From Vibrio astriarenae (lineage in GTDB: Bacteria; Pseudomonadota; Gammaproteobacteria; Enterobacterales; Vibrionaceae): DNA of 64,000 nucleotides. Location: positions 310,001 through 374,000 of the forward strand of contig NZ_CP047476.1 of assembly GCF_010587385.1 (NCBI RefSeq). Reading direction: 5' to 3'. A program made the position numbers and the translations under genes. Positions 29,720 to 62,374 of this stretch are shown here, piece by piece (position 1 is the first letter of the stretch; every line of letters starts with the position of its first letter). A model generated the notes under the pieces. That model was not told where the DNA came from. It ran no database searches and saw only the letters and a list, made by a program, of their open reading frames with translations.

Positions 29720-30850
29720 TTAGACCAACTTGTAGAATCTTGGAGAGTAGCCGCGACTCATAGAATCAACCATTTTCAACATCCTTGGTAGTGCATAGTT
29801 GAAGAAGATCCGATATCCATCGCAAAGCAAGTTTTGCTTATTGGATTGGTCTCGGTATTTTGGACATCCGCCGTTACAAAGTGGCAAGAAATCGCAGCGG
29901 TGACAGTTCTCATTAAGGTGTTTTTTTGTCGCGGCGAATGCGCGCTGCTGTTGACTTGAAACCATCTCTTGGAGGGAGTCTTGGTGACTGTTGCCCAATT
30001 CATACTGCTTATAGGGGTAGTGTTCACAACTAAACACTGCTCCACTTTTCTCAAGCATGAGCTGCTGCCCACAGACTTCACTGTGATGACACATCTGGCT
30101 TGGATGCCCCATTAAGATCATCAAGCAGTTTTCGAACAACTGGACGTGTATTTTTCCAATATCATCTTTACACCATTCATCGAAAACATCGCACAAAAAT
30201 TGTCCCCATTGCTCACCATTAAGAGACCAGTCGTAGTTTGAACGCCTATCCAGTTCATGATCGAGGCAAGGTTGAAACTGAAGGTAGGTGCTATTGGCTC
30301 GTTTAAGAAATTGATAGATCTGAGCACCATGGCGATAAGTTCTGTTGTTCACAACAGTGAGGGTGTTGAACTCTACATCATGCTCTTTAAGCAAAGAGAG
30401 CCCGCGCATGGTTCTCTCGAAGCTTGATTGTCCATCAGTATCAATTCGTGCGATGTCATTGAGCAGATTTGGTCCATCCACACTAATACCCACCATCACG
30501 TTGTGCTGTTTGAACAGTTGTGCCCATTGTTGATTGATTAAAGTGCCGTTGGTTTGAAACGTATTAGCAATGCGCTTCGCACCCGCCCACTTATGTTGGA
30601 GCTCAAAAGCCAGCTCATAAAAGGCTCTACCTCGCAAAAGGGGCTCGCCACCGTGCCAGATAAAATCAACGACTTGGCTATGTTTGGGTTGAGATTGAAT
30701 GTGGTTCTTAATCGAGACTTCAAGGGATTCAGTTTCCATTGGCGAGCCACAGCCAGTGTCGCTATTTAAGTAGTAGCAATAGCTGCAATCGAGATTACAG
30801 TTAGAACCAACGGGTTTAATTGTGAGGCTGAAAGGGAGTGTTTGTGTCAT
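29720..30850 (-). CDS. Anaerobic sulfatase maturase (radical SAM, anSME)
   Basis: The 376-residue protein has the radical-SAM cluster motif C18-x3-C22-x2-C25 (CNLDCSYCYY) and a C-terminal SPASM region with multiple cysteines (CEHYPY, CHRCDFLPLCNGGC). anSME enzymes oxidise a Ser or Cys of a sulfatase to formylglycine. The sulfatase just upstream is of the Ser type, a matching pair. The start at 30850 is preferred because an upstream Met at 30916 lies inside a terminator hairpin; the Shine-Dalgarno at 30850 is weak. Expression likely depends on read-through of that hairpin. Confidence 0.93.
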   Translation of the reverse strand: MTQTLPFSLTIKPVGSNCNLDCSYCYYLNSDTGCGSPMETESLEVSIKNHIQSQPKHSQVVDFIWHGGEPLLRGRAFYELAFELQHKWAGAKRIANTFQTNGTLINQQWAQLFKQHNVMVGISVDGPNLLNDIARIDTDGQSSFERTMRGLSLLKEHDVEFNTLTVVNNRTYRHGAQIYQFLKRANSTYLQFQPCLDHELDRRSNYDWSLNGEQWGQFLCDVFDEWCKDDIGKIHVQLFENCLMILMGHPSQMCHHSEVCGQQLMLEKSGAVFSCEHYPYKQYELGNSHQDSLQEMVSSQQQRAFAATKKHLNENCHRCDFLPLCNGGCPKYRDQSNKQNLLCDGYRIFFNYALPRMLKMVDSMSRGYSPRFYKLV

Positions 30851-30946: not shown

Positions 30947-32497
30947 TTAGTCTATGGTGTCATTACCCATACCCACGCCTGTGCCTTTTTGGATTGGCGG
31001 ATACTCCTTGAGCGACTGTTGATACTCACCGATCGCTTGATAGAAGTATGGGAGCACCCAAGACTTTTGCTTCATCCAGTGGTACCAACCCGTTGTGTCT
31101 GGTGAGCGCTCATAAGGGTCTGCTTTGATGTTCACCAAGACACCAAACGGCCACTCTTTGGCTGGCTCTGTCCAGGTGGTTTTGGTTTTTAGGTGCACTT
31201 TCCACTCATTGACGCGCACGGCATTGAGGCTGCTTTCGTTGTAGAAGAAGAATTCGCTACGAAGACTTTCGCCGCCGTTAGCCAGCATCTCCATTTGGTT
31301 ATAGCCATCTAAATGAGCAACACGCTCTCTGCCTTCGATGTTCTTACCCTCTAACAGTTGTTGCTTAATGTCATGTTCACCTGCCGCTGCCATCAGCGTT
31401 GGTAGCCAGTCTTCAGCCGACATTAGACCGTCAACATAGGTACCTTGAGGGAATTTCTCAGGCCAACTCACCAACATAGGGACGCGGAAACCACCATCCC
31501 AGGTGGTGCCTTTTTGACCACGGAATGAAGCCGCGCCACCATCAGGCCAGTGGTCAGCATTCACACCATTGTCGGAGGTAAACATCACGATAGTATTATC
31601 GAGCTCGCCAAGCGATTCGAGTTTATCAAGCAGAACACCCACCTGATCATCCAACTGTTTCAGGGCATCGTAATAGGTTGAGGTTTGGCTAGAGCCTTCG
31701 TACTCATCGTTTACATGAGTAATCGTGTGCATGCGTGATGGGTTAAACCACATGAAGTAGGGTTGATCGCCATTTTGCTCTTCGTGTGTATCGAGCCAAT
31801 CCGTCGCGAAGTTCAAGAACTCCTCATCGATTCGCTTCATACGCTCTTTACCCAATGTGCCTCTGTCGGTGATTTTCTGTTTACCAACCACCCCAAACCT
31901 TGGGTCTATCGTGTCATCATGTTCGCTGGTAGCTACTGAGTGGATAACATTGCGCGGAATGCCAATGAAGTTTGGATCTTTTGGAAACTCAGGTTGTTCC
32001 GGCATTTCCATCACATTGAGGTGGTAGAGAAACCCATAGTACTCTTCAAAGCCATTCACCGTAGGTAGGTGGGAGTTATTGTCACCCAAATGCGATTTAC
32101 CGACGTGAACGGTGGCGTAACCTTTTTGTTTGAGAAGCTCGGCGAGAGTAGGGATTTCTTGGCGCATGCCGAGTTTTGACCCTGGCTGACCCACCGAAGT
32201 TAAGCCAGTACGAAACGGGTATTGGCCAGTGATGAAGGCTGAGCGGCCCGCTGTTGAGCTTGATTGTGCGTAGTAGTCACTGATCATGACACCGCGATTG
32301 GCGATGCGATCGATATTAGGTGTTTCAATCGCGCCGAGACCTCGGTGATAAGAAGACAGATCCATCGGAGCGACATCATCGAGCATGATGGTGACAATGT
32401 TTGGCGCTTTGGCAAGGGCAGGTGAGGCAGCGAGCAATGCACTTGCCGCGATTGAAAGTGCGACGGCACTTTTAACGAACTTGTTTGGGCATTTCAT
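30947..32497 (-). CDS. Secreted sulfatase, Ser-type (S1 family)
   Basis: The 516-residue protein has a signal peptide (AVALSIAASALLAASPALA), metal-binding D40-D41 in IMLDD, and the maturation site S81-T-A83-G-R85. The latter is the S-x-A-x-R form in which Ser becomes formylglycine. VHVGKSHLGD and FTSDNGVNADHWPDGG supply further active-site residues. It hydrolyses sulfate esters in the periplasm or outside; the substrate (polysaccharide, aryl or alkyl sulfate) is not readable. It is divergent from a LysR gene, with a TATTAA-N5-TTAATA dyad between them, and has its maturase gene downstream. Confidence 0.94.
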   Translation of the reverse strand: MKCPNKFVKSAVALSIAASALLAASPALAKAPNIVTIMLDDVAPMDLSSYHRGLGAIETPNIDRIANRGVMISDYYAQSSSTAGRSAFITGQYPFRTGLTSVGQPGSKLGMRQEIPTLAELLKQKGYATVHVGKSHLGDNNSHLPTVNGFEEYYGFLYHLNVMEMPEQPEFPKDPNFIGIPRNVIHSVATSEHDDTIDPRFGVVGKQKITDRGTLGKERMKRIDEEFLNFATDWLDTHEEQNGDQPYFMWFNPSRMHTITHVNDEYEGSSQTSTYYDALKQLDDQVGVLLDKLESLGELDNTIVMFTSDNGVNADHWPDGGAASFRGQKGTTWDGGFRVPMLVSWPEKFPQGTYVDGLMSAEDWLPTLMAAAGEHDIKQQLLEGKNIEGRERVAHLDGYNQMEMLANGGESLRSEFFFYNESSLNAVRVNEWKVHLKTKTTWTEPAKEWPFGVLVNIKADPYERSPDTTGWYHWMKQKSWVLPYFYQAIGEYQQSLKEYPPIQKGTGVGMGNDTID

Positions 32498-32553
32498 AAA
32501 GTAGTCTCCATAAATGAGCTTAGAGATGGTAAGAGAAATGCTGGCTTCGTGGG

Positions 32554-32570
32554 TTAATAGCTACTATTAA
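32554..32570. promoter_or_regulatory. Second dyad in sulfatase-LysR intergenic region
   Basis: TTAATAG-CTA-CTATTAA is a perfect 7-3-7 inverted repeat. It overlaps the TATTAA-N5-TTAATA site by 6 bases, giving three copies of the half-site in a row, as expected for a multi-site LysR operator. Confidence 0.6.
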
Positions 32571-32581
32571 TAATTTTAATA
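32565..32581. promoter_or_regulatory. TATTAA-N5-TTAATA dyad, site 1
   Basis: This is a perfect 6-5-6 inverted repeat with centre TAATT. It contains a LysR T-N11-A box placed symmetrically. It lies 68 bp from the sulfatase start and 58 bp from the LysR start. Confidence 0.72.
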
Positions 32582-32638
32582 AAGGTAAGGTCATTTGAGT
32601 TTATACTATTAACATATCTTATGTTTGGTGGGCCAACG

Positions 32639-33532
32639 ATGACGAAAGACTTGAATCTATTGCGACTGCTTGTCGTATTGAGTGAGGAAAAGCAGACAAC
32701 GACAGCAGCACGGCGATTGCACGTGAGCCAGCCCACGATCAGCGTGATGTTGCGTAAGTTGAGGGATCAGTTCAATGACCCCTTGTTTGTCAGAGATAAG
32801 AACAAGCTAGAACCGACAGTTAGATGCCAGCAGATACTTCAGGGACTACCATCGATTTTGGATAGTATTGATGCCTTGTACCTAGATGAAGAGACATGGG
32901 ATATCAGTCAAGTTTCTGGTGAGGTGACCCTGATATTTTCACCACCACTGATGTCGACTATAGCGGCTCCGCTCGTTCAATTACTTTCCAGCAAAGCACC
33001 GAATGCGACAGTAGATTGTTATCATTGGGGTTTTGATGCTTTGCGTGATATTGAGCTAAAAAACAAGTGTTGGGGGTTCAGTGCGTTGCCGATGGACACC
33101 AATAAAAACATCATGCAAAAAGACATTGGCAATGACGAGTTTGTTGTTGTCATGCGTAAAGATCATCCGATAAATGGCAACAGTCTCAACGAAGTTCTGG
33201 ATTATCCACTTTGCGTTAATTTGGTTTATGGCGACTCTGGAAGTTCGCGCAGTGAACAGATATTTAGAAAGATGCATCGAGACAAAAAGGTCGGTGTCCG
33301 TACAAGTGATGTTATGGTTATGCTTCATTTGGTGGAGCAAAGTGACTATTTGGGCATCGTCTCTAAACACCTGTTACCCAAATTGGATGAGCGCTTTCGA
33401 TATGTTGACTTACCTATAGAACTCCCTGAAGAGGCGCATTATCGACCATTGGCGCTGTTTTCTCATCAGAGAAATCGACATGATCCTTTGACCCAATGGC
33501 TTCATGAGCGAGCATCCACTCTGTTGTCTTAG
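32639..33532 (+). CDS. LysR family transcriptional regulator of the sulfatase block
   Basis: The 297-residue protein has the LysR helix-turn-helix (KDLNLLRLLVVLSEEKQTTT, RRLHVSQPTISVML, DPLFVRDKN) and an effector domain ending PLTQWLHERAS. The start at 32639 has GGTGGG a few bases upstream; an alternative ATG is at 32621. It is divergent from the sulfatase, and the dyad between them recurs at three other promoters up to 39.4 kb, so it is the best candidate to bind all of them. The inducer is unknown, perhaps a sulfated compound. Confidence 0.93.
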   Translation: MTKDLNLLRLLVVLSEEKQTTTAARRLHVSQPTISVMLRKLRDQFNDPLFVRDKNKLEPTVRCQQILQGLPSILDSIDALYLDEETWDISQVSGEVTLIFSPPLMSTIAAPLVQLLSSKAPNATVDCYHWGFDALRDIELKNKCWGFSALPMDTNKNIMQKDIGNDEFVVVMRKDHPINGNSLNEVLDYPLCVNLVYGDSGSSRSEQIFRKMHRDKKVGVRTSDVMVMLHLVEQSDYLGIVSKHLLPKLDERFRYVDLPIELPEEAHYRPLALFSHQRNRHDPLTQWLHERASTLLS

Positions 33533-33563
33533 TTAGTGGAAACACCGGACTTCAAACGATGAT

Positions 33564-33587
33564 CAAGCGGGCCAAGTTGCCCGCTTG
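33564..33587. terminator. Hairpin between convergent LysR and DUF1254 genes
   Basis: CAAGCGGGC and GCCCGCTTG form a perfect 9-bp stem with loop CAAGTT. Flanking T or A runs are short, so termination strength is uncertain. Confidence 0.6.
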
Positions 33588-33598
33588 GTTTATCGAGC

Positions 33599-34966
33599 TT
33601 ATGACTTTTCTACCTTAGTAAACGGCGTCGCTTTCCATTTATCCGTTCGTACTTCCTCTCCTGGGGTATACATTCTCAGGATCGAGTACCAAGCATGATT
33701 AGGGATAGGCAAGAAGTTAGGGTTGTCTTCTTGGCCTTCAGTATCAGAACTCATGTAGATGGTATAGGAGCCGTCAGGGTTTGCCTTTAATGTTCTATCT
33801 CCCCTGGAGTGGCGGTTCATCTGATTCGACTCCATTAACCGAGTCTTAGCGCTATAGGCGGTGTAAGACCAAAAACCACCATCATTGATGTCAGGCGCAG
33901 TAAAGGTCACGGTGTAATCGTATTTACTGCCATCTAAGGGCTCACCATCAGCATCGAAGAAGTCACCCGCATACATAGTATGCTCTGCGGGCAATCCCCA
34001 CTGTCCCATCAACGTGCCATACGCATGTTGATAGCTCGGAACCTGAGTCATCTGATCTCGCGTGCCTAATACGTCTCTTGAGTCGTCAAAACCGGCATTT
34101 TTTATGCGGTCCAAGCCCTGTTTCTCACCGGCTGCAATCAAGTCAAGTTCTTGCGGTGTAAATTCAATCCCTTGAGGGTAGCCAAGTTTAACGAAATCGA
34201 ACTGGGCGAGTAGTTCCGAATCATGTTCTCGCATAGTGCCTTCAGAAAGGATGAAGTTGGTTCGCTCAGCCCAGTTTGTTTTTTTAGGATTCGGATAGTT
34301 TCTTTCTATCGGCTCGGGACCTTTTTCGCCAAGGAACTCAGACAGTGTTCTGATATTCCATTGGTCCATGAGTTTTTGTGCTTGGGCTGAATCGTCTCCA
34401 CCCAGGTCCATGATTCGTCCCATCATTTTGACCAGTGGGTGCTCCACGTAGATAACTTCATCAACACTATCAGGAATCTCTCCTTCCCAGCCTTCAACTG
34501 CATACATAAACATGCCCCCTTTTTCGCCTCTATCAGGAGAGCCAAAGGCTGAGTCTGTAAAGTGCTGCATGTTCATAGTGTGGAACAACCAATAACGGCC
34601 CTCATCGTGATCAGGAATCGTGACGATGACCGGTTCAGCACCAAGATCCATCCAGCCCATCAAATGCAACGTGTCATTGTTGATGGAAGGATGAGCGGTA
34701 TAGGTGTCATCGGCAAGCTTTCTGATGTTTTGAAACTGGTTTAATGGGTAATCCGCTTCAACCACTGTGGTATAGAAGTATTTATAAGCCTCATCAATGC
34801 TGTAGGCATACTCGTAGGCCAGTTGAGCAAGAGTTTGTGGGTTGTTCTCTTGCGCTGTTTGAGTGGCTATATTCAACGGAATGGAGTCTGCTGATTGGTT
34901 TTGGGCGCAAGCAGGCGTGCAGATGACGATGCTGGATATCGCCAGAGACAATAGACGCTTTTTCAT
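33599..34966 (-). CDS. Secreted DUF1254/DUF1214 protein (copy 1)
   Basis: The start at 34966 follows GAGG and begins the signal peptide (RLLSLAISSIVICTPACA). The 455-residue protein has the DUF1254 N-terminal region (SINNDTLHLMGWMDLGAEPVIV, YWLFHTMNMQHF) and the DUF1214 C-terminal region (FTAPDINDGGFWSYTAYSA, YTIYMSSD, NHAWYSILRMYTPG). The function of this pair of domains is not established. A Cys near the signal-peptide end (ACAQ) is not a classic lipobox. It is divergent from a second DUF1254 gene, with two TATTAA-N5-TTAATA dyads between them. Confidence 0.86.
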   Translation of the reverse strand: MKKRLLSLAISSIVICTPACAQNQSADSIPLNIATQTAQENNPQTLAQLAYEYAYSIDEAYKYFYTTVVEADYPLNQFQNIRKLADDTYTAHPSINNDTLHLMGWMDLGAEPVIVTIPDHDEGRYWLFHTMNMQHFTDSAFGSPDRGEKGGMFMYAVEGWEGEIPDSVDEVIYVEHPLVKMMGRIMDLGGDDSAQAQKLMDQWNIRTLSEFLGEKGPEPIERNYPNPKKTNWAERTNFILSEGTMREHDSELLAQFDFVKLGYPQGIEFTPQELDLIAAGEKQGLDRIKNAGFDDSRDVLGTRDQMTQVPSYQHAYGTLMGQWGLPAEHTMYAGDFFDADGEPLDGSKYDYTVTFTAPDINDGGFWSYTAYSAKTRLMESNQMNRHSRGDRTLKANPDGSYTIYMSSDTEGQEDNPNFLPIPNHAWYSILRMYTPGEEVRTDKWKATPFTKVEKS

Positions 34967-35078
34967 TTTATCGGCCTCATAGATTTTGATCAGTAGGGAT
35001 TCGTTATTGGTTTCAACGTAGTCATTGAAGGTTTGAGACAATATAGAGAAAAAGCACAGAAGGGTGTTTGATAACAGG

Positions 35079-35095
35079 TATTAAGAATTTTAATA
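35079..35095. promoter_or_regulatory. TATTAA-N5-TTAATA dyad, site 2
   Basis: Perfect 6-5-6 inverted repeat with centre GAATT, 113 bp upstream of DUF1254 copy 1. Confidence 0.72.
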
Positions 35096-35170
35096 ATTAA
35101 TACGCGATTTGTGAGCAATAGGGGGCTAGAGGAGCGCAATCTGCAGTTTTGTATTGAGTCAAACATGCTC

Positions 35171-35187
35171 TATTAAAATTGTTAATA
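35171..35187. promoter_or_regulatory. TATTAA-N5-TTAATA dyad, site 3
   Basis: Perfect 6-5-6 inverted repeat with centre AATTG, 85 bp upstream of DUF1254 copy 2. Confidence 0.72.
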
Positions 35188-35271
35188 CTAACTATAGGTA
35201 TACATAGATTCGTCACTCTGCTTTCCGCCTTTATTCTTGGTTGCAACTACACTACATATCGAGGCTTCACT

Positions 35272-36648
35272 ATGAAGAAGTCATCCCTAGCGTTATCACT
35301 TTGCACAGCGCTTAGCTTGCCTTTGCACGCTGAAATCACCCCTTCACCAGAAGAAGAGCTCGCTTACCACTTGGGTCTCCAAGCGGTTATCTATGGAGCA
35401 GGACCATTAACGGTTGCGGCGGTACGAGAAACGTCTACATCAGTTTCTATACCGATGGACAATGCGATGGCACCGCTAAATCAGATGGGAAAAACTCGCC
35501 AGTTGTCGGGCCCGCAAGACCGCATCGTCCCAACAGTCAACAACGATACGATGTATTCTCAAGCGCATTATGATTTGGACTTAGCTGGACCTATGGTCAT
35601 TGAGATCCCGCGAACGGATGACCGTTACTATATCGTCCAGTTACTCGATGCGTATTCCGATTCGATTACCGATCTCTATGAGGGAAACACTGGTTCTCAA
35701 GGGAGTAAGGTATTGCTTGTGAATGACGACTGGCAAGGTAAAACCCCGGCAGGGATTGATCATGTCGTGCGTTCACGTACGCCTATGGTTTGGCTAATTC
35801 ATCGTACGGGTGTGTTTGGACCAAAAGATCAGCAGGCCGCGGTTGAGGTACATGATCGTTTCATCACTTATCCATTAGCAGAGCTTGGAGAGTCACATGG
35901 TCCTACCAAGTTGGCTAAAGCACAGGGACGTATTCCTGAGATGACCAAGCCTGTTGGTTTAGATTGGTTTGCCTTGATCGACCGAGAGATACGCAAAAAC
36001 CCGTTGCCTGAATCGCAAGCCATGGTGGCGCAATTTGAATACCTTGGCATTGGTGGCGATGAGCCGTTTGATGAAAGCAAACTGACCGAGGCGCAAAAAC
36101 GAGGGCTAATGAGAGCCTTAAAATCAGCCCAATCGATCATTCAATACGCAGGGCGCAGCGTGGGTACGACCAACAATGGCTGGTCGATGATGTTTGAAGG
36201 TGGTCAGTATGGTAATGATTACCTGAGTCGTGCCAGCATCAACCTGCGCGCTGCAGGTCTAAATGTGCCAGAGCGAGCACTCTATCCGAACCGTTACACC
36301 GATAGTCAGGGTAAACAGCTAAACGGTGACAATCAGTATCGAATGGTAATGCCAGCGGATGCACCAGCAGAGGGGTTTTGGTCACTGACCATGTATGACG
36401 CAGAGAACTTGTTCATGGTAGAAAATGAGATCGACCGTTATTCGATTTCTACCAATAGAGCTGAAGAGCTAAAGTTTGCGCAAGATGGCACCCTTCCTAT
36501 CTGTATTCAACATACCAAACCTACCGACGAGTCATGTAACTGGCTTCCGGCACCCAAAGACGATTTCTATCTGCATATTCGCTTGTATGAGCCAACCAAA
36601 GCAGTGTTGAACAACGAATATGAAATGCCACAAGTGCACAAATTGTAA
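35272..36648 (+). CDS. Secreted DUF1254/DUF1214 protein (copy 2)
   Basis: The start at 35272 follows GAGG and begins a signal peptide (SLALSLCTALSLPLHA). The 458-residue protein has the DUF1254 core (TVNNDTMYSQAHYDLDLAGPMVIEI, YYIVQLLDAYSDS) and the DUF1214 end (PAEGFWSLTMYDAENLFMVEN, CNWLPAPKDDFYLHIRLYEP). It resembles the divergent copy 1 in layout but differs clearly in sequence, so the duplication is old. It is followed by a hairpin and a FadL-like gene, suggesting a shared role with an outer-membrane channel for hydrophobic molecules. Confidence 0.88.
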   Translation: MKKSSLALSLCTALSLPLHAEITPSPEEELAYHLGLQAVIYGAGPLTVAAVRETSTSVSIPMDNAMAPLNQMGKTRQLSGPQDRIVPTVNNDTMYSQAHYDLDLAGPMVIEIPRTDDRYYIVQLLDAYSDSITDLYEGNTGSQGSKVLLVNDDWQGKTPAGIDHVVRSRTPMVWLIHRTGVFGPKDQQAAVEVHDRFITYPLAELGESHGPTKLAKAQGRIPEMTKPVGLDWFALIDREIRKNPLPESQAMVAQFEYLGIGGDEPFDESKLTEAQKRGLMRALKSAQSIIQYAGRSVGTTNNGWSMMFEGGQYGNDYLSRASINLRAAGLNVPERALYPNRYTDSQGKQLNGDNQYRMVMPADAPAEGFWSLTMYDAENLFMVENEIDRYSISTNRAEELKFAQDGTLPICIQHTKPTDESCNWLPAPKDDFYLHIRLYEPTKAVLNNEYEMPQVHKL

Positions 36649-36655
36649 TGATGAG

Positions 36656-36678
36656 ACGCTTCCTAAAGGAAGCGTTTT
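36656..36678 (+). terminator. Hairpin between DUF1254 copy 2 and FadL-like gene
   Basis: ACGCTTCC and GGAAGCGT form a perfect 8-bp stem with loop TAAA and a short T tail. It may attenuate transcription into the FadL-like gene 24 bp further on. Confidence 0.65.
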
Positions 36679-36701
36679 GCTAATGTACAGTCGGAGTACA
36701 C

Positions 36702-37865
36702 ATGATACCTACTCACTATAAATACAGCGCATTAGCGCTGACTTTGTTTTCGTTTAACAGCCATTCCGCTGCAACGCTAGTGTCTGAGATGAGCCAGCTC
36801 AATGTTGGCACAGCAGGTGCTGGGTCAGCCATATTAGCTGAAGGGGCATTCACCGCATATTCTAACCCTGCTGCTATGTCTCATATCGACCAAGCGCATA
36901 TCGCCATCAATATGGCGATGATGAAATTGGGCATTAATTATCAAGATGATCGTGACTCTTCACTGGACAGTGATAATGCGGGTGGTGCGCAACCGTATGG
37001 TTCGCTTTATGCGATCTCACCGCTCAATGAGCATGTTCGGTTGGGTTTATCATTGGTGGCTACAGGCGGGAGTGGACTTGACTACGGCAGTGATTATTCG
37101 GGAAAGCTTGGCTTGAATGAGTTGCAGCTCAGTGTGTTGCAGTTCAACCCCTCTCTAAGCTATGAGGTGAGTGAACAACTGAGTTGAGGCTTGGGTGTTC
37201 AAATCGATCGGGCATCCTTTGAGCAGACTTTTCTGGGAGAGAGGGCGAATTTAGAATCAAGCTCGTATGCACTTGGCTACAACCTTGGTGCCACCTATCT
37301 TCTCTCTTCGAAGCATAAGCTTGGGTTAACGTTCCGCTCAAAAATGGAACATGACTTAGAGGGTGATTTATCAGTACTCAACCGAGAGTTTGAGAGTCAA
37401 GTAGGCTTGTTGAACGCGGCGAGGCTAGAGGCCTCTGGTTATCATCAACTTACTCAGCCGATCGCACTGGTTTGGAGTCTGGGGCAAGAGTTTTGGAGTG
37501 AAAATGACCAAACCTTAGTTCGCCTCAGTGATACAGAAATTTCAAAACCGCGCAGGTTTGAAGACGTTTGGTTTGCGTCATTAGGGAGCAAAATTGCCCT
37601 CACTCATAAATTTGTCATGGAGTTGGGGGTAGGCTACGTAAGTTCACCATTAGAGGATTCGTCACTGCAATCATCGGATTTGCCGGTAGATCAGCAGGTG
37701 CGATACAGCTTAGGCGGTCGCTACCAATGGGACAAAACGACTAACATCAACATGTACTACAGCTATGTAGACTACGGTGAACCTGAGATAAACAGTGGTG
37801 CAATGCAAGGTCGATACGATAACGACAATCACTTTGTCGGTGTCGAGCTAGATTACCGATTCTAA
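36702..37865 (+). pseudogene. FadL/OmpP1-family outer-membrane protein gene interrupted by in-frame TGA
   Basis: One continuous frame of 388 codons encodes a FadL-type protein: signal peptide, LNVGTAGAGSAILAEGAFTAYSNPAAMSHI, strand-rich barrel, and a C-terminal strand ending VELDYRF. A TGA at 37185-37187 cuts it after residue 161 (SEQLS-stop-GLGVQ). Both halves read well on either side, so a single substitution such as TTA to TGA explains it. FadL proteins carry hydrophobic compounds across the outer membrane. CGGAG precedes the ATG. It follows the DUF1254 gene and would have supplied its uptake channel. Confidence 0.85.
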
Positions 37866-37895
37866 ACCACGAATCGACCTTAATAGCTGAATATG

Positions 37896-37934
37896 AAAAA
37901 TGCCATCGCAACTTCAATTGCGGTGGCATTTTTT
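37896..37934. terminator. Bidirectional terminator after FadL-like gene
   Basis: AAAAATGCCATCGCA pairs with TGCGGTGGCATTTTTT (one wobble pair) around a short loop, with A-run and T-run flanks. It serves both convergent units. Confidence 0.85.
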
Positions 37935-37965
37935 GTTAGCAGATGCTTGGTCTTTGATGGGTAAT

Positions 37966-38997
37966 TTATAGGGCAGACAAGAATGACTTTGCCGAGGTTA
38001 ACCTGAGTGTTGCTCCACCAATAATGTCCAAAAAACCTAAAAGCTGATGGGGTTTATTAGCGCTAATCAAAGCTGAACCAGTCGCTCCAATCGGGATCAT
38101 TGCCATCGTCTCTCTATCCACCTCCAGAATCACCGTTCTACCTACAGGCGCTGAACCGCGCTGAATATGACTTGAGACAGCTTGCTCTCTTGGCAGCAGG
38201 TTTCCTTGTGCTTCCCCTGTCGCTTTGACTACACTGTGCACGCGAGAACGAAATATTTGTCCTGGGTATGCATCAATATAGAATTCACTGAATTGTCCGG
38301 GTTCGATGTTTCCATAAGCTTGATCTGGGATACGCATTTCAACGAACTTCTTACTGGTGTCCCATAGGTGCATAGAACCCACACGTGTTCCGTCAGCGAC
38401 GTAAACGTGAGTGACCATTCCATCGAACGGGGCTTGAACGGTTAAACGGGAAAGACCAAATTCAAGGCTGCCTTGTTTAGCAAGCAAGCCATCTAGTTTG
38501 GCTTGAAGAACTTTCATCTCCGCTTCAAGCACTTCTACTCTGTCCTGTGCGTTCTCGAGGTCTTTGACGCTGACATGCTCTGCCATGGATTCGTTTCGAA
38601 CTAAATCGCGTTTGGCTTGTGAAAGCTGAACATTTTTTGCTTCAATAGGGCGCGTCACTTCCTTGAGGCCTGATTTTACCTCAGTAATGGCGGCAGTGAT
38701 TTTGTCATCTTTCAGAGTATAAAGAACGTCTCCTTGTTTCACTTCCTGGTTATGAACGACATGAACTTTGTCCATATGTTGCCCAAAGGCGGGAGATAAG
38801 ACAGCGTGAGGCGATTTAACCGTCGTTGAGTTGGTTAAATCAATGGGAGAGTAAAATCGATGGCCTAAAAATAGTGCAATGGCGAGCAGAATACCGATTG
38901 TCGTAGTGATGAAGTAGTTTCGTGCCGTCGGTTTGAGCACTTTAAACTTGAACAGAAGCCACACAACCAGTAAATACGGCAGCATAATCTCTTTCAT
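37966..38997 (-). CDS. HlyD-family membrane fusion protein (YibH/YiaV-like)
   Basis: The start at 38997 overlaps the stop of the DUF3302 gene by 4 bases (ATGA). The 343-residue protein has one N-terminal membrane span (FITTTIGILLAIALFLG) and a biotinyl-lipoyl-like segment (VVHNQEVKQGDVLYTLKDDK). A coiled-coil hairpin with VEVLEAEMKVLQAKLDGLL and a barrel region (VQAPFDGMVTHVYV) follow. It matches the E. coli YibH/YiaV pattern of an inner-membrane adaptor next to a DUF3302 protein. No transporter or outer-membrane factor is adjacent, so its partner is unknown. Confidence 0.88.
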   Translation of the reverse strand: MKEIMLPYLLVVWLLFKFKVLKPTARNYFITTTIGILLAIALFLGHRFYSPIDLTNSTTVKSPHAVLSPAFGQHMDKVHVVHNQEVKQGDVLYTLKDDKITAAITEVKSGLKEVTRPIEAKNVQLSQAKRDLVRNESMAEHVSVKDLENAQDRVEVLEAEMKVLQAKLDGLLAKQGSLEFGLSRLTVQAPFDGMVTHVYVADGTRVGSMHLWDTSKKFVEMRIPDQAYGNIEPGQFSEFYIDAYPGQIFRSRVHSVVKATGEAQGNLLPREQAVSSHIQRGSAPVGRTVILEVDRETMAMIPIGATGSALISANKPHQLLGFLDIIGGATLRLTSAKSFLSAL

Positions 38998-39230
38998 GAG
39001 CGTGCCCCTTTTAGCCAAAGCTGAACTTTGTCCCAGTCAGTGACAATCGCAATGACGGCGAGTATCCACAACGGCTTGTATACGAGCCCTAGTAAACACA
39101 ACCAAAAAACCAACTTTGCTTGGGCCAACCCTCGCTCTTTGGCTAAGTGTTTGGGGATAGAATGGATATGCCACAGTTTGGCAATTACCCAAACAGCAAT
39201 AGCTACTGTAACAACAACGACAAACCACAT
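38994..39230 (-). CDS. DUF3302 inner-membrane protein (YibI/YiaW-like)
   Basis: The 78-residue protein has a first membrane span (VVVVTVAIAVWVIAKLW), a HSIPKHLAKERGLAQAKL loop, and a second span (LVYKPLWILAVIAIVTDW). This is the DUF3302 layout found beside HlyD-type proteins in E. coli (YiaW/YiaV, YibI/YibH). It overlaps the adaptor gene by 4 bases, so the two are translated together. A TATTAA-N5-TTAATA dyad lies 139 bp upstream, in the gap shared with the SGNH hydrolase gene. Confidence 0.85.
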   Translation of the reverse strand: MWFVVVVTVAIAVWVIAKLWHIHSIPKHLAKERGLAQAKLVFWLCLLGLVYKPLWILAVIAIVTDWDKVQLWLKGARS

Positions 39231-39537
39231 GAATTCGATTGATTCGAGAAGTGGATAGACACTAGGATAAGTTTATAAGTAAGGTTAGTAGGGTGTATCA
39301 ACATAGGTGACCTCCGTATTTTAGCGTTCAATATACGAAAAGATGCACTTAAGTTGCGCTATACCAACTATTAAGAATCTTAATACACTGACTATCCCAA
39401 GTGACTGTTGTTTTTGATAGAATTTGACGCTTTGAAGTCACGAAATATGTGTAAAGTGATGGGGTTATTAGCCCAAACGATACAAAATTATTCGTGGAAT
39501 ATGTTGCTCGTAAACGTACAAAAGGAAGGCATTGATA
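39231..39537. other. Divergent promoter region of DUF3302 and SGNH genes
   Basis: This 307-bp gap contains the fourth copy of the dyad (39369-39385) and a strong AAAGGAAGG ribosome site (39521-39529) for the hydrolase gene. I see no other gene. Confidence 0.6.
39369..39385. promoter_or_regulatory. TATTAA-N5-TTAATA dyad, site 4
   Basis: Perfect 6-5-6 inverted repeat with centre GAATC. It lies 139 bp from the DUF3302 start and 152 bp from the SGNH hydrolase start. Confidence 0.72.
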
Positions 39538-40164
39538 ATGAAAAGCGTATTGTGTTTTGGAGACTCCAACACGTGGGGCTACGCGCCAGACTTACCTCGT
39601 CGCTTTAACATGAGTGAACGTTGGACGATGCAACTGCAATTGTTACTTGGAGATCAATACCGCATCATTGAAGAAGGGTTAAACAGTCGCACAACCGTGT
39701 TTGAGGACCCGTTTGAACCTGGTAAAAAAGGCTTGGATTATCTGTATCCTTGTCTGGAAAGCCATCACCCAGATTTGGTGGTGTTGATGCTGGGAACCAA
39801 TGATCTCAAAACGCGTTTTAATGTCTCTGCCAGCGATATTTCTAAGGGCGCAGCGAGGCTGGTGGAAATGATTCAGCGGTTCCATCATGGCTTTATGGCT
39901 AAACCTGCAGATGTCCTTCTCGTTTCGCCAACTCTGGTATTTGAGACACGCATTGGATTTGAAGGGTTTGACGGTGCGGCTGAAAAATCTAAGCAGCTCG
40001 GCCACTATTTCAAACTTCGATCTGAAGAGCTAAATTGCCACTTCTTGGATGCCGCTGAATTTGTCGAGCCTTGTGCTGTGGAAGGCGTGCATTGGCCGCT
40101 TGATCAACATACGAAATTCGCTCATCGATTGAGTGAAATCATTCCGACGTTGTTCAATGAGTAA
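39538..40164 (+). CDS. SGNH/GDSL-family hydrolase
   Basis: The ATG at 39538 is chosen over a TTG at 39532 because AAAGGAAGG lies 8 bases upstream. The 208-residue protein has the GDSL block I (VLCFGDSNTWGYAP, nucleophile Ser about residue 9), the GTND block (VVLMLGTNDLKTRF) and the late D-x-x-H pair in EGVHWPLDQH. No signal peptide is visible. It is probably an esterase or deacetylase for a small ester; arylesterase-like members have the same length. It shares its upstream region, with dyad site 4, with the DUF3302/HlyD pair. Confidence 0.92.
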   Translation: MKSVLCFGDSNTWGYAPDLPRRFNMSERWTMQLQLLLGDQYRIIEEGLNSRTTVFEDPFEPGKKGLDYLYPCLESHHPDLVVLMLGTNDLKTRFNVSASDISKGAARLVEMIQRFHHGFMAKPADVLLVSPTLVFETRIGFEGFDGAAEKSKQLGHYFKLRSEELNCHFLDAAEFVEPCAVEGVHWPLDQHTKFAHRLSEIIPTLFNE

Positions 40165-46568: not shown

Positions 46569-47264
46569 TTATGTTAGAGCGTTATCGAATATTTTTAGCA
46601 TGGTGTCATTTCTAATATGCCCCAGTTGACTTAGCTTGAATAGACAGTGGTAATCTTCTTGAATGTACTTGACCAAATTCGCTTTCCCAAGTGGGCTCAG
46701 TTCACTTGGCACCGTGGTCTTGTTTAGCTTTTCAATAGGTTTATTATCGTTATTGACACCCAAGTAATGTTCAATGTCAGCATTGAGGCTTTCTTGCATC
46801 AAGCCCCCTTTAATCATCGAAGTCGGGCATTTTTTCAAGAAGTCTTCAAGGTAAAATGAGATTCGCTCACGCAAGTGATGGATAGTTTCAAAATCTGCAG
46901 CGACGTCGGGGTTAACCTTGCCTGAATCATCAAACAAACCTTGAGCCAAGTTGTTAATGTTCTGATACTATTTAAAAATTTCAAATTCAGCATCGAACCG
47001 ATTGTTTTGAGTTTGATCGACAACCACTAACTTATACCTCCAATTAAATGCAGAAATACATCGACTAATTGGATCGCGAGCGACAATGTAGTAATTTTGA
47101 TTTTTTATATAAAGAAGTTTTGTTACATGGACAGCGTGGGTTATTTCTAGCTTTGTAGGCTCTTTCATTGCACTTCGCAGTGAAGATCCGCCGCATTTAC
47201 CAATGTGAATTAAGACATTTTCATGATTGCGTTGTTCTAAATATCGTTTAAACCTATATAGCAA
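46569..47264 (-). pseudogene. Sulfotransferase-family gene interrupted by in-frame TAG
   Basis: One continuous frame of 232 codons encodes a small sulfotransferase-like protein. VLIHIGKCGGSSLRSAM is the 5'-phosphosulfate loop and VARDPISRCISAFNWRY is the 3'-phosphate site. A C-terminal helical half carries LRERISFYLEDFL. A TAG at 46968-46970 splits it after FEIFK. The apparent start is TTG 47264 behind AAGGAG. It would transfer sulfate from PAPS to an acceptor. Since no frameshift is needed, a single substitution explains the break. The gene could also be expressed with low read-through. Confidence 0.75.
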
Positions 47265-47367
47265 AGCTATCTCCTTAAAAAATCGAACACTCCAAGTAGC
47301 AGGCCGGTTTGTTTCATCGTCAGTCTAACTTGCAATCAAATTATCATAATCCTATACAAATAAAGTC

Positions 47368-47384
47368 TATTAACCTTATTAATT
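47368..47384. promoter_or_regulatory. Near-match to the TATTAA-N5-TTAATA dyad
   Basis: TATTAA-CCTTA-TTAATT matches 11 of the 12 fixed bases. It lies 104 bp upstream of the broken sulfotransferase gene. The region is AT-rich, so chance is possible. Confidence 0.3.
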
Positions 47385-61576: not shown

Positions 61577-62374
61577 ATGGAAATGAACAAAAGAATTATC
61601 GCTTTATCGGGTGTTGCAGCTTTAAGCTTCAATGCGGTTGCTGAAGAAGAACTACAAGATATGTCTGATCCGCTCGCGGTTTATACCCAAGCTGGTATTG
61701 GCTACACAGATAAAGGCCTAAACTTAAAAGTGGGTCAAGCCTACGACACGGGCAATCCAGATACGATGGGCATGCACGTTCTAGAGTTCAAAGGCATAAT
61801 GGGTGAAGACCTTGGCTGGAATGGTGACGCACGTCAGGGCAACGATAACAGCATAGATAGCTTCCGCTACCGTCATTTTGGTGTGGACTTGACTAATGGT
61901 CGTGGCTCACAGGTCGATGTGAATATGGCTTTCAAGACAGATAATGGTACACAAGGCACTGCTTCTTATAGCTTTATCCAAGCTCTACCTAAAATGGGGC
62001 CTGTAAACCTTTACCCTCTAGCGGGTGCGGGTGTGGCTTTTGGCGATACGTTTGACGCCGACCGTCCTGATGCTCAAGCACAAGACCGTTGGGATATTCA
62101 CGGTACGTTTTACGTCGTAGGTATGTACGGCAAAGTAGAGATTACCGACAAGATTTGGCTGAACTACAACCCAATGTACATGGGTACTATGTCAGGATCT
62201 TCAGCATACAAAGATAACGGCTTTGGCGTGGGCAACGACACTGTATTCGCTCACGAAGCGGCTATCTCATACCAAATCAACCCTCGCTCAAATATCCGAT
62301 ACTTTGCGAACTGGACGGAATATACAGATTTTTCCGACGGTGACCATCGCATAGAGTACAACTACCAATTTTAA
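61577..62374 (+). CDS. Outer-membrane beta-barrel protein, unknown family
   Basis: The start at 61577 follows GGTGGAGA; an alternative Met is at 61583. The 265-residue protein has a signal peptide (IIALSGVAALSFNAVA) and strand-rich segments: YTQAGIGYTDKGLNLKVG, FRYRHFGVDLTNG, IWLNYNPMYMGTMSG, and a C-terminal strand (HRIEYNYQF) with the aromatic end typical of barrels. The cargo is unknown; the divergent galM and isomerase suggest a sugar or oligosaccharide. It is followed by a perfect palindromic terminator. Confidence 0.78.
   Translation: MEMNKRIIALSGVAALSFNAVAEEELQDMSDPLAVYTQAGIGYTDKGLNLKVGQAYDTGNPDTMGMHVLEFKGIMGEDLGWNGDARQGNDNSIDSFRYRHFGVDLTNGRGSQVDVNMAFKTDNGTQGTASYSFIQALPKMGPVNLYPLAGAGVAFGDTFDADRPDAQAQDRWDIHGTFYVVGMYGKVEITDKIWLNYNPMYMGTMSGSSAYKDNGFGVGNDTVFAHEAAISYQINPRSNIRYFANWTEYTDFSDGDHRIEYNYQF

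Follow-up and report, generated by a model that had tools for sequence, protein, structure and literature searches.

A 64,000-nucleotide stretch of the Vibrio astriarenae genome (contig NZ_CP047476.1, positions 310,001 to 374,000, here called the window) carries a gene cluster that is probably controlled by a LysR-type regulator encoded within it, through four copies of an operator found nowhere else in the genome. In the proposed mechanism, the LysR protein (32639-33532) would be a local transcriptional activator that recognizes a directional operator of three half-sites, TATTA-N7-TAATA-N5-TAT. In the window, three of the four promoters have a sigma-70-like -10 box, with no recognizable -35 partner, 50 bp past the start of the operator; at the remaining one, that of DUF1254 copy 2, the -10-like box lies 11 bp, or one helical turn, further on. 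The units predicted to be activated are sulfatase-maturase, DUF1254 copy 1, DUF1254 copy 2-FadL, and DUF3302-HlyD. We give this full mechanism a probability of about 0.87; rarity, conservation, direction, spacing, and co-occurrence are shown by sequence, while DNA binding, activation, the extents of the operons, and the ligand are those of its parts that we infer.

A sequence-only reading of the window had reported four exact copies of the dyad TATTAA-N5-TTAATA, all intergenic, and no further perfect copy. A pattern scan placed the four copies at the same positions (32565-32581, 35079-35095, 35171-35187, and 39369-39385), and the chance expectation for the window, from 100 dinucleotide shuffles, was 0.00. 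The absence of further perfect copies extends to the entire genome (4,799,333 bp in 2 contigs; the window is G000:C2:310001-374000): the window's four are the only exact dyads present (n=4), and the reversed control pattern occurs once. At one mismatch or fewer, the genome shows only background outside the cluster. The four dyads are intergenic given an ATG start at 32497 (minus strand) for the sulfatase, a start at 32639 (plus) for LysR, and ATG starts at 34966 (minus) and 35272 (plus) for DUF1254 copies 1 and 2, respectively; an alternative TTG start, giving a longer copy 2, would overlap site 3. Each dyad is of the LysR type, an interrupted T-N11-A dyad upstream of nearby target genes. The 6-bp half-sites described earlier are exact in the window, but the core shared with relatives is shorter, TATTA-N7-TAATA, with positions 6 and 12 differing by clade.

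Alignments of upstream DNA showed that an additional TAT, five bases beyond the dyad, is conserved and extends the element to TATTA-N7-TAATA-N5-TAT. Exact copies of the extended element number four in the genome, all in this cluster; exact matching and the direction of the TAT give the following.

32557..32581, minus strand: operator 1 (TATTA-N7-TAATA-N5-TAT), toward the sulfatase
35071..35095, minus strand: operator 2, toward DUF1254/DUF1214 copy 1
35171..35195, plus strand: operator 3, toward DUF1254/DUF1214 copy 2
39361..39385, minus strand: operator 4, toward DUF3302-HlyD

Conservation ahead of orthologous genes, which the sequence-only reading had asked for, was found across a patchily distributed family. 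LysR orthologues (E ≤ 1e-75) occur in 36 of 296 Vibrionaceae genomes, and relatives extend to a second family (61% identity, genome G048, with a DUF1254 protein on the contig that bears the name of Motilimonas eburnea) and a third (47%, G422). We compared 39 loci: 37 segments, each of roughly 20 kb, that surround LysR relatives, plus the Vibrio hannami locus (L009) and the window; one locus with a 24% LysR relative (L012) has no site at one mismatch or fewer and was omitted from the counts. In 37 of the 39, the neighbors of LysR include sulfatase, maturase, or DUF1254 genes, whose order varies, and the core dyad precedes such a gene in 32 of these 37 clusters when matched exactly and in 36 at one mismatch or fewer. 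Counted within -250 to +60 of gene starts, with open reading frames (ORFs) called heuristically, the exact core lies upstream of DUF1254 copy 2 in 22/33 cases, the sulfatase in 21/35, the maturase in 14/29, and DUF1254-c, a third DUF1254 kind about 30% identical to copy 2, in 11/16, compared with 0/335 for other ORFs of at least 150 residues in the same 39 loci. Allowing one mismatch raises these values to 26/33, 25/35, 16/29, and 12/16, in the same order. The 14 exact maturase sites come from a single clade whose maturase and DUF1254 copy 2 genes are divergently oriented, and the site between the two points to copy 2. In the upstream alignments the dyad forms a conserved island in otherwise diverged DNA; its distance of about 67 bp from the sulfatase start codon holds from the window through Photobacterium (L083 and L086), where the dyad takes the form TATTAG-N5-CTAATA. 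Five sites with one mismatch or fewer were removed by hand from the logo, four of them in coding sequence and one intergenic (L085, 18526). In L071 (genome G140), a single cluster contains two relatives of LysR (61-62%), which are separated by about 2.4 kb and adjoin different parts of it.

Judged by these alignments, the operator is directional. Among intergenic sites with a cluster gene on exactly one side (n=43), TAT stands at the fixed spacing on the side of the target gene in 39 and on the opposite side in 1, which lets sites be assigned to genes in other vibrios. In a 14-member clade, the TAT before DUF1254 copy 2 is also the start of another dyad, slightly imperfect and shifted by 22 bp (e.g., L078, 11713), giving an array of four half-sites. 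In the window, TAT lies on the sulfatase side of site 1, the DUF1254 copy 1 side of site 2, the copy 2 side of site 3, and the DUF3302-HlyD side of site 4, leaving the LysR gene on the far side of site 1 and an SGNH hydrolase gene on the far side of site 4. The earlier pairing of sites 2 and 3 with the two DUF1254 genes agrees with this direction. The reading had also assigned site 1 to the LysR gene and site 4 to SGNH, as an esterase; neither assignment is supported, as the TAT and the -10-like boxes described below point to the sulfatase and DUF3302-HlyD instead. A wider wiring, in which site 1 would also control the LysR gene and site 4 also SGNH, would fit the divergence of both genes from these sites in the window, and autorepression of a divergent regulator gene is common among LysR-type proteins. 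Neither the LysR side nor the SGNH side has a TAT, however, and of 38 LysR genes, 3 have the core upstream when it is matched exactly and 5 at one mismatch; the three exact cases (window, L009, and L106) share their site with a divergent sulfatase. We therefore regard such dual control as rather unlikely.

The operator also stands at a fixed distance from a likely promoter element. A TAnnnT hexamer, resembling the sigma-70 -10 box, begins at exactly +50 from the first dyad base in 30 of 37 sites, a manual selection that took one site or a few from each LysR clade and in which all carry TAT at +22. Over the remaining offsets between 26 and 73, the hexamer reaches at most 5 sites (at +61), and at +50 on the opposite side it is found in 3 of 37. 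All seven exceptions are DUF1254 copy 2 promoters (window, L009, L106, L071, L073, L072, and L104) whose LysR proteins form one clade in the tree; TAnnnT lies at +61 in five of them, at +62 in L009, and at neither position in L106. No -35 box was detected in the 30 sites with +50 spacing, where the best match averaged 2.77 of 6 compared with 2.89 for the best of five at random. The offset scan gave the following boxes in the window.

32526..32531, minus strand: -10-like TACCAT, at +50 of operator 1
35040..35045, minus strand: -10-like TATATT, at +50 of operator 2
35232..35237, plus strand: -10-like TATTCT, at +61 of operator 3, 11 bp beyond the spacing of the other three
39330..39335, minus strand: -10-like TATATT, at +50 of operator 4

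If transcription starts about 7 bp past the -10-like box, the dyad is centered near -54 and the TAT near -40. Read against the general architecture of LysR-type regulators at promoters, this arrangement suggests an activator-dependent promoter, because an upstream operator and a third half-site beside the polymerase accompany a promoter with no -35 box. LysR-type proteins can both activate and repress, and a LysR acting mainly as a repressor would be compatible with the same direction and spacing. The dyad, however, lies upstream of the inferred promoter rather than over it, and the promoters have no -35 box, making predominant repression unlikely.

Presence and absence across the 296 Vibrionaceae genomes tie this LysR to the cluster. 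DUF1254 copy 2 (E ≤ 1e-130) occurs in 32 genomes and LysR in all 32 of them, in one (G153) as two pieces on two contigs. The sulfatase (E ≤ 1e-150) occurs in 35 genomes, 34 of which have LysR (33 plus G153). The sole exception, G244, has a sulfatase, DUF1254-c, and maturase, but its best LysR relative is 29% identical, and no such site precedes its sulfatase, DUF1254-c, or maturase. Fisher tests of LysR with copy 2 and with the sulfatase gave p values of ~6e-38 and 5e-38, which are overstated because the genomes are related. Two deep-branching outgroup LysR relatives (G288 and G289) lack both the cluster and an exact site. A different regulator might bind the sites and control the same genes, as the LysR gene is not always beside its sites (in L073 they are about 7 kb away). 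Against this stand the near-perfect co-occurrence with this LysR, the missing site in G244, and the LysR type (T-N11-A) of the dyad, and we consider a second regulator quite improbable. Taken together, rarity, conservation, co-occurrence, and operator-promoter geometry strongly favor what the sequence-only reading had proposed, a single regulon in which LysR, the predicted binding protein, governs the sulfatase, DUF1254, and membrane-fusion genes; the LysR gene and SGNH are not supported as targets.

Several observations weigh against the activator mechanism or the counts behind it. Many loci are close kin, and a single tight clade in the tree accounts for 14 of the 39, so the counts are not independent; the promoter sites were selected by hand, and the ORF calls are heuristic. 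At one mismatch or fewer, the core also precedes 12 of the 335 control ORFs. A site before DUF1254 copy 1 is not conserved, being found at 1 of 19 such genes, and 1 of 4 DUF3302 genes has a site, in each case the window's own. L085 has two imperfect sites without TAT, and its genome (G111) lacks copy 2 at the E cut used. L081 is the one cluster of the 37 without a core at one mismatch or fewer: its second half-site has decayed by two changes, and the DUF1254-c gene behind it is split into two pieces separated by about 1.45 kb, which hints at relaxed selection. The outgroup genome G289 has one core with one mismatch and no TAT (locus L102). In G422, a one-mismatch TATTG-N7-TAATA lies between LysR and DUF1254-c, and nothing strong was found before DUF1254 copy 2. 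A rival view, that the dyads are AT-rich palindromes arisen by chance or repeats with no regulatory role, draws on the genome-wide count at one mismatch or fewer (30, compared with 23 for the reversed control) and on the presence of at least one bare exact dyad in 218 of the 296 family genomes when only 36 of the 296 have LysR, so that the dyad also exists without LysR; but this genome's exact copies all lie within the cluster, the control ORFs in relatives' loci have no exact core, and direction and -10 spacing are conserved, leaving chance a very remote prospect.

The genes surrounding the four operators are as follows.

29720..30850, minus strand: anaerobic sulfatase maturase, radical SAM/SPASM (TIGR03942, 456.1 bits against a cut-off of 349.45, run on 29720-30847)
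30947..32497, minus strand: sulfatase (PF00884) with a Ser-type S-x-A-x-R motif and a signal-peptide-like N terminus; conserved site upstream
32639..33532, plus strand: LysR-type regulator, presumed activator (HTH_1 PF00126, 5.5e-16; LysR_substrate PF03466, 4.9e-14)
33599..34966, minus strand: DUF1254/DUF1214 copy 1 (Pfam), relative of VPA0106 (PDB 3u07)
35272..36648, plus strand: DUF1254/DUF1214 copy 2 (Pfam), the most constant partner of LysR by presence and absence
36702..37865, plus strand: gene for a FadL-like outer-membrane channel (PF03349 on both halves), interrupted in frame by TGA at codon 162
37966..39000, minus strand: HlyD-family periplasmic adaptor (PF16576)
38997..39260, minus strand: small protein, DUF3302 by its earlier name, start not settled
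39541..40164, plus strand: SGNH/GDSL hydrolase (PF13472), a neighbor and not a supported target in the window

The S-x-A-x-R motif and a maturase partner above the TIGR03942 cut-off identify a Ser-type sulfatase with an anaerobic maturase; the two genes, on the same strand with a gap of about 96 bp, are likely cotranscribed. Both DUF1254/DUF1214 copies contain both Pfam domains above the gathering score. The FadL-like channel that had been placed in the system is present as a gene, but it is interrupted by the in-frame stop, either a broken gene or a sequencing error; its relative in L107 is one unbroken ORF of 394 residues. The small protein at 38997-39260 has no Pfam or NCBIfam match, and copies 86-92% identical to it adjoin HlyD in L071, L072, and L104. 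In V. hannami (L009), SGNH lies downstream of DUF1254 copy 2 and FadL, in the same orientation.

What the regulon does can be proposed only tentatively. Its likeliest purpose, on a weak inference, is that an organic sulfate ester is captured, desulfated, and processed in the periplasm, with the ester or its product as inducer. Alternatively, and just as speculatively, the genes may form an undescribed periplasmic pathway in which the DUF1254/DUF1214 proteins, as new enzymes or binding proteins, would be the core and the sulfatase would not; an organic molecule, often sulfated and perhaps amphipathic, would enter through the FadL-like channel, be handled by DUF3302-HlyD, and be sensed by LysR. 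The sulfatase may serve one substrate class, with DUF1254 as the core, because G245 and G048 keep LysR, operators, copy 2, DUF1254-c, FadL, and HlyD with no sulfatase match in the fetched 20 kb (and, in G245, none genome-wide at E ≤ 1e-150). A DUF1254 core is in turn opposed by G111 and G116, which keep LysR and the sulfatase without DUF1254 copy 2 at the E cut used. With a tight regulon, its regulator, a defined operator, and predicted promoters in hand, the signal of LysR would reveal the molecule that the DUF1254 proteins handle.

The regulator appears to be an ordinary LysR-type protein and the regulon new, as no description of it or of the operator was found in the searches made of open-licence PubMed Central papers. 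Like OxyR, CbbR, BenM, and other LysR-type regulators, it combines HTH_1 and LysR_substrate domains with a T-N11-A dyad upstream of promoters and an extra half-site toward the promoter; unlike them, its target set comprises sulfatase, DUF1254/1214, and DUF3302-HlyD genes, behind this particular operator. Membership in LeuO or YidZ was rejected, as the best NCBIfam matches (YidZ, 81.7 bits against a cut-off of 314; LeuO, 80.1 against 262) fall far below threshold, as does the match to the choline-sulfate utilization regulator (TIGR03418, 27.8 of 324.8 bits). SftR of Pseudomonas putida, whose targets reportedly are an arylsulfatase and an uptake system with no DUF1254 genes, resembles this protein, by description only, as a LysR-type regulator tied to sulfate-ester use. 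It is named as a LysR-type regulator of sulphate ester metabolism in a title in the reference list of PMC9694294. The best solved sequence relative of the window sulfatase is PsFucS1 (PDB 7AJ0, S1_13; E 1.5e-48), described in a passage of PMC8484680 as a fucoidan-active sulfatase with a Cys-type signature, unlike the Ser-type signature here; because the two are distant, the substrate cannot be fixed from PsFucS1.

The DUF1254 fold is that of VPA0106 and VPA0735 of Vibrio parahaemolyticus (PDB 3u07, 2p3y, and 3vb9); no function for these two was found in the literature passages on them, nor for DUF1254/DUF1214 proteins generally in the literature searched. Such proteins are widespread, with listed relatives from Vibrio, Shewanella, Cupriavidus, Mycobacteroides, and others, among them a 64% relative of copy 2 in Aliivibrio fischeri. 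Some databases call DUF1254 proteins (here P0004, P0007, and P0057) phosphatidylserine decarboxylase, a name to which the Pfam and fold results lend no support. In V. parahaemolyticus, VPA0601, called arylsulfatase regulator, changed 0.463-fold with calcium (a passage of PMC11176486), and VPA0602, a LysR, 0.356-fold with chloramphenicol (a passage of PMC10562556); from names and gene order we would guess that the pair are orthologues of genes in this cluster.

Beyond the four operators, an extended operator with one mismatch lies at 47360-47384 (minus strand), and some 95 bp downstream of it are two short ORFs (46569-47264) in one frame with a stop between them. The ORFs have no Pfam match, their sequence looks like that of a sulfotransferase, and the site is perhaps a fifth, decaying target. 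A further recurrent neighbor is an exported-looking protein of about 250 residues without a Pfam match (L104, 14804-15583), present at about 55% identity or more in 9 of the 39 fetched loci (the set L009, L012, and L071-L107, with L104 itself counted). The window's copy (61583-62371, 58%) lies about 22 kb from the cluster, and the extended-operator scan found no operator close by. The gene behind the counterpart of operator 4 in L072 and L104 is DUF1254-c, and after it come the 250-residue exported protein, DUF3302, and HlyD. At 39260-39385 the window keeps the operator, the -10-like box, and the leader GGAGGTCACCTATG, and DUF1254-c is not there; the window's DUF3302-HlyD pair may have inherited the DUF1254-c promoter by deletion.

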